DNA of 42,489 bases from Vulcanimicrobiota bacterium (GTDB taxonomy: Bacteria; Vulcanimicrobiota; Vulcanimicrobiia; Vulcanimicrobiales; Vulcanimicrobiaceae), in contig DAHUYK010000103.1 in NCBI GenBank assembly GCA_027315245.1, forward strand, positions 1-42,489, read 5' to 3'. Shown here piece by piece: positions 12,464 through 29,217 of this stretch (its first letter is position 1; every line of letters begins with the position of its first letter). The notes beneath the pieces are model-generated. The model saw only the letters and a list, made by a program, of their open reading frames with translations. It was not told where the DNA came from and made no database searches. Both the position numbers and the translations under genes were made by a program.

Positions 12464-12547
12464 TGCCCAGAAAGGGACTCGAACCCCCACGATGTTGCCA
12501 CCACTGGTACCTGAAACCAGCGCGTCTACCAATTCCGCCATCTGGGC
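12464..12547 (-). tRNA. tRNA-Leu (anticodon CAG)
   Basis: On the minus strand the acceptor arms GCCCAGA and TCTGGGC pair, with discriminator A at 12464. The D-arm contains GGCGGAATTGGTAGACGC, typical of leucine tRNAs. The anticodon stem CTGGT/ACCAG holds loop TTCAGGT with anticodon CAG. A long variable arm follows (TGGTGGCAACATCG), and the T-arm has GGGGGTTCGAGTCCC. The class II variable arm confirms Leu. The CCA end is not encoded (GTA follows). Its 3' end points toward the Abi-like gene. Confidence 0.95.
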
Positions 12548-25665: not shown

Positions 25666-26316
25666 CTACAGGCGCACGAAAACCACGGGCTTGGTCGTCG
25701 GCTGGGGCGACCCGCCCGCGGGCTCGACGCTGATTGCGACGGCAGCGAGCGTGGCGGTATCCATCGCGACGTTGACCGTCGAAGACGTAGCCGGGAAGGT
25801 GACGGAGGGCGAGACCCTGCGCGCTCCGCGGGCGAGCGTCCAAACTTGGTAGACGCGGCCCGCCGGCAGCGGCGCGAGGCGTTGTGCGATCGTGATGCGG
25901 TCCTTTTTCACATAGAGCACACCGTCCGCAAATGCGTAGCGCCGTACGATGCCCGTACCGGGGTGCGTCGTCCAAGGGTGCCATGCAAACGCTGCGACCC
26001 CGAGCAATGCCAGCGCTATGCAGGCTGCGATTGCGGCTAGCGGACGCGTCCTCAGCTTCGCAATGCGATTTTGGGGTCGAACCCTCTGCATGATCCGTTC
26101 TTTGAGCAGCGGGCTTACTTGGGGGCCCTCCTCGCCCGTCTCGCACGCCTGTACCGAGTACGCCAGCGCGGTCACGGCCGAGAGAAGCTCGCGATACTCC
26201 GTCGTGCACTCGTCGCATCCATGCAAGTGTTCGGTAACGCCGGCGACGTCTACAACGGGCAGCGTGCCGAGCGCGTAAGCCGCGACCTTCTCCAGCATCG
26301 CGTCATGAGGCGTCAT
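25666..26316 (-). CDS. Anti-sigma factor, RskA-like with zinc-finger domain
   Basis: A 216-residue membrane anti-sigma factor. The N-terminal anti-sigma domain has the H-x3-C-x2-C zinc motif in EHLHGCDECTTEY (about residues 29-37), which sequesters the cognate ECF sigma. One membrane helix follows (PLAAIAACIALALLGVAAFAW, about 93-113). The C-terminal extracytoplasmic domain is of RskA type, with ITIAQRLAPLPAGRVYQVW and VAISVEPAGGSPQPT near the end. The start overlaps the sigma stop by 4 bp (ATGA), the usual coupling of sigma and anti-sigma. The signal it senses is unknown. Confidence 0.92.
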   Translation of the reverse strand: MTPHDAMLEKVAAYALGTLPVVDVAGVTEHLHGCDECTTEYRELLSAVTALAYSVQACETGEEGPQVSPLLKERIMQRVRPQNRIAKLRTRPLAAIAACIALALLGVAAFAWHPWTTHPGTGIVRRYAFADGVLYVKKDRITIAQRLAPLPAGRVYQVWTLARGARRVSPSVTFPATSSTVNVAMDTATLAAVAISVEPAGGSPQPTTKPVVFVRL

Positions 26317-26873
26317 CGTATGCCAACCTCTTGCAGTTCAGCTCTGAGCTTTCGCAGCCCCGCTCGGATGCGCGTCTTTACCGTGCCGAGCGGCACGCCC
26401 GAACGGCGAGCGATCTGGTCGTGGGAAAGACCATCGAAGAATCCTAGCTCGATTGGCTCGCGCTGCTCCTGCGGTATACGAGCGAGCGCACTGCGAACAT
26501 TGCGGCTCTCGAGCTTGCGCATTACGTAGTCATCGAGCGCATCTTGCGCAGAGGGCATCGCCGGAATCTCGCCCTGCACAACGAACGCACCGCCGCGCAA
26601 TACGTCGATGCCGCGGTTGCGCGCAACACGCGCAATCCACGCGCCGAAGTTACCGCCGCGAAAGGCTGTCGGATCGCTCCAAATCTTTAGGAATACGGAC
26701 TGCGTCACGTCTTCGGCGCCCCTAACATCCGAAAGAACTCGCAGCGCGATGCCGTACACGAGGCGATGATACTGATCGTAGAGCGCCTCGAACGCAGCCG
26801 CGTCGCGGCATCGAATGCGCTCTACGAGCGCCGCCTCATCCACCCTCCACCATTCGCCGCACACGTTCCGCAA
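26313..26873 (-). CDS. ECF RNA polymerase sigma factor (SigK-like)
   Basis: A sigma-70 family ECF protein of up to 186 residues. Region 2 shows AAFEALYDQYHRLVYGIALR, then EDVTQSVFLKIWSDPTAF and FGAWIARVARNRGIDVLR. Region 4 shows IPQEQREPIELGFFDGLSHD followed by the helix-turn-helix IARRSGVPLGTVKTRIRAGL. The extreme N-terminus is uncertain: TTG 26873, GTG 26864 and GTG 26843 are all in frame, and the last gives MDEAALVERI, a more family-like start. It lies 42 bp after the SigB-like gene and is coupled to its anti-sigma. It probably controls envelope or oxidative stress genes (inference). Confidence 0.93.
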   Translation of the reverse strand: MRNVCGEWWRVDEAALVERIRCRDAAAFEALYDQYHRLVYGIALRVLSDVRGAEDVTQSVFLKIWSDPTAFRGGNFGAWIARVARNRGIDVLRGGAFVVQGEIPAMPSAQDALDDYVMRKLESRNVRSALARIPQEQREPIELGFFDGLSHDQIARRSGVPLGTVKTRIRAGLRKLRAELQEVGIR

Positions 26874-26915: not shown

Positions 26916-27722
26916 CTACTCTTTGAGGACCGAGCGCAGCTTGTCGAGTGCCTTCGCTTGCAGCCGGGAGACGTGCATTTGCGACACGTTGAGCCGTTGC
27001 GCGATCTCCGTCTGCGAGACGGATTCGAAGAAGCGCAAGTAGATGATGACGCGCTCGCGGCCCGACAGCACGGCAAAGGCTCGCTCGAGGTTTGCACGAT
27101 CTTCGAGCAGTTCGAGACCGGAGTCGTTCGCGCCGACGGTATCGGCGAGGGTCTGGGAGCGGCGGTCGCCGTCGCCGGAGATCTCGGAATCGAGCGAGAG
27201 CAGGTTGTAGGCTTGCCCCAACTCCTGCGCTTCGAGAATCTCTTCTTCGCTTGCCTCCAAGTGCGCGGAGAGTTCCGCCACGGTCGGACTGCGGCCGAGC
27301 TGCACGGCAAGCTTCTCGCTAGCACGGTTCACGGCCAAGTTCAGCTCCTGCAAACGGCGCGGAACCTTCACCGCCCACCCTTTATCGCGGAAATATCGTT
27401 TGATCTCGCCGACGATCGTCGGCGTCGCGTACGTCGTGAACTCGACGCCGCGGTCGAGTTGAAACCGGTCGATCGCCTTGAGCAGTCCAACGGTTCCCAC
27501 CTGCACGAGATCGTCGATCGGTTCGCCGCGATTTGCGAACTTCAGCGCCAGAAAGCGTACGAGGTTGAGGTGCGCGACCACGAGGTCGTTGCGCAGGCTT
27601 TCGTACGCGGGATCGAGGTTTTCCGGTTCCGCTTCGTGTCGTTGACGCACCTGTTCGAAGCGACCAAAGAGCCTTCGAGTCCGCTCCCGTGTGGACCGAG
27701 AGGCGTGGTTGCGCTCGGGCAC
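26916..27722 (-). CDS. SigB/SigF-type RNA polymerase sigma factor
   Basis: A 268-residue group 3 sigma factor. Region 2 is visible as NLVRFLALKFANRGEPIDDL, VQVGTVGLLKAIDRFQLDRG and TYATPTIVGEIKRYFRDKGW. Region 3 follows as VPRRLQELNLAVNRASEKL. Region 4 has VLSGRERVIIYLRFFESVSQ and the helix-turn-helix TEIAQRLNVSQMHVSRLQAK. This is the stress/sporulation sigma architecture controlled by RsbW/SpoIIAB-type partners. The GTG start at 27722 lies 1 bp after the RsbW-like stop. The STAS, RsbW-like and sigma genes run in that order, as in sigB/spoIIA operons. Confidence 0.94.
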   Translation of the reverse strand: MPERNHASRSTRERTRRLFGRFEQVRQRHEAEPENLDPAYESLRNDLVVAHLNLVRFLALKFANRGEPIDDLVQVGTVGLLKAIDRFQLDRGVEFTTYATPTIVGEIKRYFRDKGWAVKVPRRLQELNLAVNRASEKLAVQLGRSPTVAELSAHLEASEEEILEAQELGQAYNLLSLDSEISGDGDRRSQTLADTVGANDSGLELLEDRANLERAFAVLSGRERVIIYLRFFESVSQTEIAQRLNVSQMHVSRLQAKALDKLRSVLKE

Positions 27723-27723
27723 G

Positions 27724-28140
27724 TTAGGACGGCGAGCGTTTGAACATGACGAGATCTGCTTCCCCTGCGCCGCGCGGCTCGTGCTCGACCGAATCCATGA
27801 GCGCCCGAATGAGGAAAATGCCGAGATTCCCGGCAGCCGCCTCGTCGGCAGTTGGTTCGTTAACCGGTTCAGGCGTGGGCAGACCGAAGTTTCGCACCCT
27901 GATACGCAATCCGTCCGGGACGCTTTCGCAGATCACGTCGATGCGATCGCCGCCGCGAGCGATCGCGTGCACGAGGGCCTCGGCAACCGCAAGTTTGACG
28001 TCTTCGATTTCCTCTATCGAAAACTGCAACCGCGACGCGACCGCGGAGACGGCGAGACGGGCGATCGACACCCATTCTGCCTTGGCGGGAATGCGCAACT
28101 CGACGACGTCCTCCGCCGCCCGGTGCGCCGGCGCGTTCAT
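27724..28140 (-). CDS. RsbW/SpoIIAB-like anti-sigma factor with altered ATPase residues
   Basis: A 138-residue HATPase_c (Bergerat-fold) protein placed between STAS and sigma genes, so it should bind the SigB-like sigma. The fold is clear from IEEIEDVKLAVAEALVHAI (N box), LRIRVRNFG (G1 region) and GNLGIFLIRALMDSVEH (G2 region). Two residues differ from working kinases. The N-box Asn that coordinates Mg-ATP is His in EALVHA, and the G1 Asp that contacts adenine is Asn in VRNFG. Kinase activity may be weak or lost while sigma and antagonist binding remain (inference). It overlaps the STAS gene by 4 bp. Confidence 0.88.
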   Translation of the reverse strand: MNAPAHRAAEDVVELRIPAKAEWVSIARLAVSAVASRLQFSIEEIEDVKLAVAEALVHAIARGGDRIDVICESVPDGLRIRVRNFGLPTPEPVNEPTADEAAAGNLGIFLIRALMDSVEHEPRGAGEADLVMFKRSPS

Positions 28141-28481
28141 ACAAGCGCTCGAAGAGCCGCATCCTCGTTGTCAAAGATGCCGAAGATCATGACGAGTCCC
28201 GTAATATCGAATATCTTTTTGATCTGCGGGTTTGTGCAGACGAGATTGACCGAGCCGCCGTGTTCGCGTACGCGCTTGAGCCCGCCGATGAGGACACCGA
28301 GCCCCGTTGAATCGATGTACCGCACTTTCTCGAGATTGATGACCAGGTTATACACGCCGCGATCGATGAGGTTTCCGATAGCATCCTTGAGCTTCGGAGA
28401 GGTATAGACGTCGATCTCGCCCGAGAGGTCGACTACGGACGAATCTCCCTTCGCCTCACGCACGTTCACCTTGATGTCCAA
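28137..28481 (-). CDS. STAS-domain anti-sigma factor antagonist (RsbV/SpoIIAA-like)
   Basis: A single STAS domain: VVDLSGEIDVYTSPKLKDAI, VINLEKVRYIDSTGLGVLIG, GGSVNLVCTNPQIKKIFDIT. The DSTG motif keeps the serine/threonine phospho-acceptor site used by RsbW-type kinases. In its unphosphorylated form the family frees sigma from the anti-sigma. The start is debatable. ATG 28499 overlaps the YtxH stop but lacks a ribosome-binding site. TTG 28481 has AGGAG exactly 7 bp upstream, formed by the overlap region itself, so I prefer it (114 aa). It overlaps the RsbW-like gene by 4 bp. Confidence 0.92.
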   Translation of the reverse strand: MDIKVNVREAKGDSSVVDLSGEIDVYTSPKLKDAIGNLIDRGVYNLVINLEKVRYIDSTGLGVLIGGLKRVREHGGSVNLVCTNPQIKKIFDITGLVMIFGIFDNEDAALRALV

Positions 28482-28491
28482 CGGTTCGCTC

Positions 28492-28806
28492 CTATTCATC
28501 TGGGTTAAAGTGTACCTCGTCGTAACCCGAACGAGCGTCATCGGTAACGGTGCGCCCTCGCTCGTAGAGATCGTTTGCGTTGGCTTGCCACTGTGCCGCA
28601 GCGTCGGCAACGCGATCGCGCACGTCGTTGACTTTTGTGCGCAGATCCTCGGTCGCGTCTTTGGCAAAGTTCGACGCCTCCTTGGCCTTGCCGAGAAGCA
28701 TGTCGCGCGCGTCCTCTCGCGTGAGCGCAAGCGCAACCGCGGCGCCGATGGCGGCGCCGACGAAAAACCCACCGAAAAAGCCGCTGCCGCGGCGTTCATT
28801 TGCCAT
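28492..28806 (-). CDS. YtxH domain-containing protein
   Basis: A 104-residue protein with the YtxH pattern: a glycine-rich membrane helix at about 8-28 (GSGFFGGFFVGAAIGAAVAL) followed by a charged amphipathic coiled-coil tail (KAKEASNFAKDATEDLRTKV). In Firmicutes such proteins are general-stress or envelope proteins. It sits 6 bp after the DUF948 gene, and its stop overlaps the alternative ATG of the STAS gene. It therefore belongs to the stress operon. Confidence 0.85.
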   Translation of the reverse strand: MANERRGSGFFGGFFVGAAIGAAVALALTREDARDMLLGKAKEASNFAKDATEDLRTKVNDVRDRVADAAAQWQANANDLYERGRTVTDDARSGYDEVHFNPDE

Positions 28807-28812
28807 GATGTG

Positions 28813-29217
28813 CTAACTCCTCGGAGTCGCGTCCTTCGCACTCTTTCCCGTAACCAAACGTCGCAAACCAGCGCTCAAGCCGCCCAGCGTCGCCCCGACG
28901 TTGACGATCGCGGGAGAGACAGCCTCGCGGACGAGCGAGGTAGCGCTGGAGACGGAGCCGGCGATGCTTTCGAGCGCACCTACGGCCCTGCCCAGCTTTG
29001 CAAGCGTCTCGTCTGCCGTTGCCGAGATGCCTTCCACATGGCCGAGCGCCTCGACGATGGGTGCGCCGACGCCGGCGATCTGCCTATCCACTTCGTCGAG
29101 GGTCTTGCGCAGGCGCGCCAAAAGCCTCGCAAGCGCCAGCATCGCGACGAAGATCCCCAACCCCACGAGCAAGGCCCCGAGACCGGCGCCGATGTCGAGA
29201 ATGCTTGGCCAGTCCAT
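28813..29217 (-). CDS. DUF948-like membrane-anchored coiled-coil protein
   Basis: A 134-residue protein with an N-terminal membrane helix (about 5-32, ILDIGAGLGALLVGLGIFVA) and a long heptad-rich tail (LLARLRKTLDEVDRQIAGVG, VEGISATADETLAKLGRAVG). This resembles DUF948 proteins, which in many genomes lie next to YtxH genes, as here. The function is unknown; an envelope-stress or structural role is plausible. The ATG at 29217 is 1 bp after the cysteine desulfurase stop. Confidence 0.78.
   Translation of the reverse strand: MDWPSILDIGAGLGALLVGLGIFVAMLALARLLARLRKTLDEVDRQIAGVGAPIVEALGHVEGISATADETLAKLGRAVGALESIAGSVSSATSLVREAVSPAIVNVGATLGGLSAGLRRLVTGKSAKDATPRS

Follow-up and report, generated by a model that had tools for sequence, protein, structure and literature searches.

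An RsbW-like anti-sigma factor with an eroded nucleotide site beside an intact STAS acceptor, in a conserved operon of uncultured soil bacteria

The window analysed here, a stretch of 42,489 nucleotides from a Vulcanimicrobiota bacterium (assembly GCA_027315245.1, contig DAHUYK010000103.1), contains five genes tightly packed on the minus strand, which encode a DUF948-like protein, a YtxH-like protein, a STAS protein, an RsbW-like anti-sigma factor and a SigB/F/G-family sigma factor (Table 1). The end of the YtxH-like gene overlaps the start of the STAS gene, the start of the anti-sigma gene shares 4 bases with the end of the STAS gene, and the GTG start of the sigma gene lies 1 base past the anti-sigma stop. 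The STAS gene product also scores above the cut-off for ant_ant_sig (TIGR00377). The source assembly comprises 2.1 Mb in 169 contigs with a completeness of 96.1%. Its host group consists of uncultured soil bacteria, and the named records among close relatives are mostly Candidatus Eremiobacterota metagenome assemblies.

Table 1. Genes of the putative switch operon and codons discussed in the text (positions in the window)
Feature	Position	Strand	Remarks
SigB/SigF/SigG-family sigma factor	26916..27722	-	268 aa; TIGR02980 287.9 bits, cut-off 234.35
RsbW/SpoIIAB-like anti-sigma factor, nucleotide site eroded	27724..28140	-	138 aa; HATPase_c_2
Asn84 codon (G1 Asp position, SpoIIAB Asp81 by chain numbering)	27889..27891	-	
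His58 codon (N-box Mg-binding Asn position, SpoIIAB Asn50)	27967..27969	-	
STAS anti-sigma antagonist (RsbV/SpoIIAA-like)	28137..28499	-	120 aa; STAS E 6.4e-23
Ser64 codon in DSTG, expected phosphoacceptor of STAS protein	28308..28310	-	
YtxH-like gene	28492..28806	-	PF12732 E 3.2e-4, below cut-off
DUF948-like gene	28813..29217	-	PF06103 E 1.5e-6, below cut-off

The genes upstream of the switch are largely conserved: a YtxH-like homologue is found upstream of the switch operon in 91 of the 112 loci with enough flank, and a DUF948-like homologue in 78 of 82. In B. subtilis, YtxH and DUF948 genes are members of the sigma-B stress regulon. On the other side, the stretch that separates the sigma gene from alaS encodes an ECF sigma factor together with an RskA-like anti-sigma factor (25666-26873, minus strand). 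This pair is present in two of the six larger loci of the genus that reach alaS. It was considered as part of the conserved unit and rejected, with homologues of the ECF sigma factor in 0/81 and of the RskA-like protein in 0/76 loci with enough flank; it is either a recent insertion or has been repeatedly lost. A single RNA gene was found in the window, a tRNA-Leu (CAG) at 12464-12547, also on the minus strand. A SigB/F-type promoter pattern, with a consensus similar to that given for mycobacteria in the accessible text of PMC7693655, had no match in the window where about two were expected by chance, and autoregulation is thus unsupported.

The sequence of the window anti-sigma protein places it in the RsbW/SpoIIAB fold family. 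It matches HATPase_c_2 (PF13581) with an E-value of 5.9e-18 (65.5 bits, cut-off 27.4), and its closest solved relative by sequence is B. subtilis RsbW (6m36, E 3e-14). An AlphaFold2 model built from 70 sequences has a mean pLDDT of 84.9, with residues 91-97, in the ATP-lid region, below 50. A Foldseek search with this model gave the RsbW-RsbV complex (6m36) as top match (E 8.1e-11), followed by SpoIIAB and then by mycobacterial UsfX with RsfB or SigF. Such a fold match is uninformative on ATP binding. The curated kinase models all scored below their cut-offs for the window protein: 78.1 versus 145 bits for NF003144, 73.3 versus 155.05 bits for TIGR01924 and 44.4 versus 135 bits for TIGR01925.

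A preliminary description of this DNA had pointed out that the N box, read as EALVHA, lacks its Asn and that VRNFG stands where the G1 Asp motif is expected. Both readings were borne out in a MAFFT alignment of 118 relatives, the window protein included. In the N box (E54-A-L-V-H58-A), His58 aligns exactly with SpoIIAB Asn50, and in the G1 motif (V-R-N84-F-G) Asn84 aligns with Asp81, which we take to be the adenine-binding residue. The same description had named a conserved Asn or Asp at neighbouring positions as an argument against its view; the alignment contains none that could rescue either motif. For SpoIIAB, the accessible text of PMC10345196 describes Asn50 as Mg-binding and E46 as the catalytic base. 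Five further changes touch the nucleotide site of the window protein, namely T57 to V, H62 to R and G105 to N (Val57, Arg62 and Asn105 being the equivalents of SpoIIAB Thr49, His54 and Gly107), and G127 to E and T128 to A, so that the late Gly-Thr reads Glu127-Ala128. The catalytic-base position is intact (Glu54, SpoIIAB Glu46), and the partner-contact residues R28, D47 (Asp as in RsbW) and K49 are present. Judged by the curated cut-offs and the two catalytic motifs, the protein fails the kinase-subfamily marks tested. Its kinase activity has likely been lost.

Misalignment as the source of the missing Asn was checked and set aside, since MAFFT places His58 exactly on Asn50. Pairwise BLAST put gaps inside the N box and produced a false His in Brevibacillus fluminis, unlike its full sequence, and all counts were for this reason taken from the MAFFT alignment. 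The 118 rows comprise 99 from the order and 19 from elsewhere in the phylum; as references, four RsbW proteins of Brevibacillus were aligned with them, as were the SpoIIAB and RsbW chains. Within the order, 97 of the 100 genomes with a match were aligned, second copies from G033 and G045 were added, and the partial G011 and G099 were dropped, as was G017, which had just a paralogue. Outside the order, 19 matching genomes were aligned and weaker matches dropped. The G086 row is partial, and G111 and G113 were counted with no STAS or sigma neighbour found, so that they may not be true orthologues.

Across these relatives the nucleotide site is eroded to very different degrees. Asn is found at position 58 in 73 of 117 relatives, and eleven different residues substitute for it (A 21, H 6, S 3, T 3, Y 2, M 2, I 2, C 2, and G, K and R once each). 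Position 84 is Asp in 99/118, and, in window numbering, G86 is retained in 93/118, G105 in 89/118 and T/S128 in 99/118. Altogether 52 of the 118 relatives lack the Asn, the Asp or both, 11 lacking both and 66 retaining both. On a quick tree of STAS and sigma, from which the anti-sigma gene was excluded, the minimum number of changes is 9 for N58, 11 for D84 and 0 for G107, counts that give no direction. The Asn is retained in Brevibacillus and in 12 of 14 sister-family sequences of the same class, which makes an intact ancestor the simplest reading. Coordinated loss of pocket positions was not significant, with 5 to 7 usable independent pairs per site pair.

Within the window's own genus, both sites can be read in seven sequences, which carry, at positions 58 and 84, His/Asn (five), Ser/Asp (one) and Asn/Asn (one); in an eighth row, which is partial, the G1 position is Asn. 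Conservation in close homologues had been proposed as a check of the two substitutions. Both recur in 5/7 of these sequences, and they do not form a fixed lineage signature. Read from the alignment, the His58 and Asn84 substitutions are part of a graded, repeated erosion. Sequencing error or chance is an implausible source for them, given the exact alignment, the further nucleotide-site changes and the recurrence of both within the genus.

Other positions have hardly moved. R28 and D47 are each found in 117/117 relatives and K49 in 116/117; their SpoIIAB equivalents are R20, E39 and K41, of which, in the accessible text of PMC10345196, R20 and K41 contact sigma and E39 and R20 are close to the STAS site. 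Glu54 is invariant (117/117), as is G107, the second G2 glycine in window numbering (118/118, eroded proteins included). That the adjoining STAS partner keeps DSTG, as first described, is confirmed by D63-S64-T65-G66 in the window gene, and the motif is present in 64/64 STAS rows paired with an intact anti-sigma factor and in 50 of the 51 paired with an eroded one. In the sole exception, G026, the STAS row is a fragment and contains an unresolved residue, which leaves the site unreadable; G086, G111 and G113 lack a STAS row and are outside these counts. Within the same loci, STAS is far closer in identity to its window counterpart than the anti-sigma factor is. Median dN/dS values, which are rough because dS is near saturation, were 0.13 for the anti-sigma gene (21 genus pairs), 0.036 for STAS (20) and 0.082 for sigma (21). 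By this sequence measure, the anti-sigma gene is under purifying selection. Its faster evolution relative to its operon neighbours could mean that the gene is decaying or has been repurposed, the sigma factor no longer needing an anti-sigma. However, purifying selection, the fixed partner-contact positions and the conserved gene order and overlap all argue against this, and we hold it to be very improbable.

Since ATP-binding residues have been lost repeatedly and the partner-gripping residues are fixed, the anti-sigma factor probably reads a phosphate switch that another enzyme writes. In the explanation that we favour, and consider fairly probable, this RsbW-type protein would hold the neighbouring sigma factor and read the phosphorylation of the STAS Ser, which it would no longer write itself, another kinase doing so. 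Several findings weigh against this explanation. Residual ATP binding would also explain the invariance of Glu54 and G107, the majority of relatives retain both Asn and Asp, the operon has no linked kinase, and neither the co-loss of pocket positions nor the HATPase association described below is significant.

The invariance of Glu54 and G107 would also be expected if the anti-sigma factor had remained a kinase that uses ATP through an altered site, perhaps weakly or slowly, with His58 helping to hold Mg and Asn84 bonding adenine. The M. tuberculosis protein UsfX reportedly shows unusual nucleotide binding, which we counted in favour of such a kinase. However, the eleven residues that replace the Asn are chemically scattered, so that no single substitute chemistry is apparent, and the Thr49-, His54-, Gly107- and T128-equivalents have also changed in the window protein. 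We regard a surviving kinase of this type as unlikely.

The favoured explanation, with the STAS phosphate written elsewhere, directs attention to the other HATPases of the same genomes. In the window's genome there are 8 HATPase_c_2 matches, 6 SpoIIE-type PP2C domains and 5 STAS domains; four of its proteins fuse PP2C and HATPase, the searches for the two domains having hit identical contigs and frames. Among the other HATPase modules of the genus, read by eye, the N-box Asn is present in 26/26 and the G1 Asp in 24/26; the corresponding counts for six more genomes whose operon copy is eroded are 24/24 and 23/24. The modules read were 26 of 53 non-operon rows for the genus and 24 of 48 for the six genomes, mostly the best-scoring ones, and a few are of the histidine-kinase type. 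As these modules keep the N-box Asn, the erosion appears peculiar to the operon protein and no habit of the genomes. Three HATPases elsewhere depart from the G1 pattern: L209 and L211 (in G083 and G085) are long proteins that retain the N-box Asn and have lost the G1 Asp (IRNHG, VRSPG), and L282 (G010:C48:140956-141285) has an intact N box and His for the G1 Asp (EIRHQG).

Homologues of one intact stand-alone HATPase (G000:C91:2223-2684) occur in 56 of 103 genomes of the order, among them 8/8 of the genus, and a second stand-alone type was found at other locations in further genomes. All 41 stand-alone HATPases read retain the N-box Asn (40 by pattern, one by reading). In a search for a replacement kinase with two query proteins in 97 genomes of the order, at least one of the two types was present in 41 of the 44 genomes with an eroded copy and in 31 of the 53 whose copy is intact, raw counts that lean towards such a replacement. 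The split between the two types in genus g5 is 12 to 4, with neither type in two genomes. The association of site loss with a second stand-alone HATPase was not significant when tested on independent pairs (5 pairs on supported branches, median p 1). That a second kinase enabled the loss is thus compatible with the data, though not proved by them. No kinase was found genetically linked to the operon, and the PP2C-HATPase fusions showed no link to it either.

This lack of a linked kinase would be natural if the STAS protein were free of phosphorylation control, its amount, redox state or a ligand deciding the outcome and its Ser having a structural role. There is a parallel in RsfA of M. smegmatis, which according to the accessible text of PMC7693655 is governed by a disulfide and not by phosphate. 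However, DSTG is found in every readable row, and the genome encodes the six SpoIIE-type PP2C domains mentioned above. We find such freedom from phosphorylation improbable. The preliminary description had suggested that partner switching here may not rely on phosphorylation by the anti-sigma factor itself, or may use an external kinase. The first suggestion is well supported by the repeated loss of the nucleotide site beside fixed partner-binding residues. The second agrees with the acceptor Ser in every readable row, the intact HATPase modules elsewhere in the same genomes and the RsbW1/RsbW2 precedent of M. smegmatis; no specific kinase could be tied to the STAS protein, and the association of site loss with a second HATPase did not reach significance.

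The favoured mechanism, in which the anti-sigma factor reads a phosphate written by another enzyme, would operate as follows. The anti-sigma factor would hold the SigB/F/G-type sigma factor encoded alongside, and the unphosphorylated STAS protein would displace this sigma factor from it. Another GHKL-type serine kinase of the same cell, either an intact HATPase that stands alone or the HATPase half of a PP2C-HATPase fusion, would probably phosphorylate STAS Ser64 and so stop the displacement. A PP2C phosphatase would remove the phosphate and restore it. Glu54 may have been kept because, by analogy with SpoIIAB, it would face the STAS Ser in the docked complex. In a broader form, which we put forward tentatively and consider somewhat doubtful, the anti-sigma factor of the general stress switch in Eremiobacterota would be giving up its kinase role in one lineage after another and be left only to read STAS phosphorylation, with Glu54 sensing the phosphate and with writers that differ by genus.

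A close functional parallel is found in mycobacteria. In the accessible text of PMC7693655, M. smegmatis RsbW1 is a SigF-binding protein that does not phosphorylate RsfB; the phosphorylation is carried out by RsbW2, a separate RsbW homologue with intact N, G1 and G2 motifs, and this division of labour has been shown experimentally; a phosphatase for this split RsbW1/RsbW2/RsfB system is described in the accessible text of PMC10950880. As with RsbW1 and M. tuberculosis UsfX, the anti-sigma gene adjoins a SigF-type sigma gene here, and UsfX is among the nearest folds. In contrast to these systems, the STAS gene lies inside the same operon, the phyla differ, the writer kinase is a predicted one, and intact and eroded versions of one operon gene coexist in one order and even in one genus. 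The window protein likely works like a kinase-less anti-sigma factor of the RsbW1 type. With RsbV-RsbW-SigB of B. subtilis, the locus shares gene order, domain families, the best sequence and fold match, the acceptor motif and the conserved partner-contact positions; however, RsbW is the RsbV kinase and has intact N and G1 residues, both of which are lost here. The three-gene logic and the fold are also those of SpoIIAA-SpoIIAB-SigF, whereas the equivalents of SpoIIAB Asn50, Thr49, His54, Asp81 and Gly107 are replaced in the window protein. Finally, the four PP2C-HATPase fusions of the window's genome are reminiscent of Rv1364c and could both write and erase the STAS phosphate; a difference is that Rv1364c has a STAS domain of its own as well (PMC7693655, accessible text).

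Kinase-less RsbW proteins are already familiar to specialists, and the new part is the graded, repeated erosion inside one conserved operon. Among the papers listed by a literature search, none contained occurrences in Eremiobacterota, which is no proof of absence as subscription papers were mostly outside its scope. In the usual description of partner switching, a single protein is anti-sigma factor and kinase at once; mycobacteria show that the two jobs are separable. Here, the number of nucleotide-site losses in this operon ranges among close relatives from none to one or more, so that a side-by-side comparison of natural intact and eroded orthologues could test whether the kinase was replaced before the pocket was lost. 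If the lineage-by-lineage reading is true, these relatives would line up as natural intermediates of a single transition inside the same conserved operon. The annotation "serine-protein kinase RsbW" is unsafe for such genes. In two more distant members of the phylum, L193 and L194 (in G108 and G110), the N-box Asn is replaced by Lys or Arg and the G1 Asp is retained, which suggests that the erosion extends past this class.
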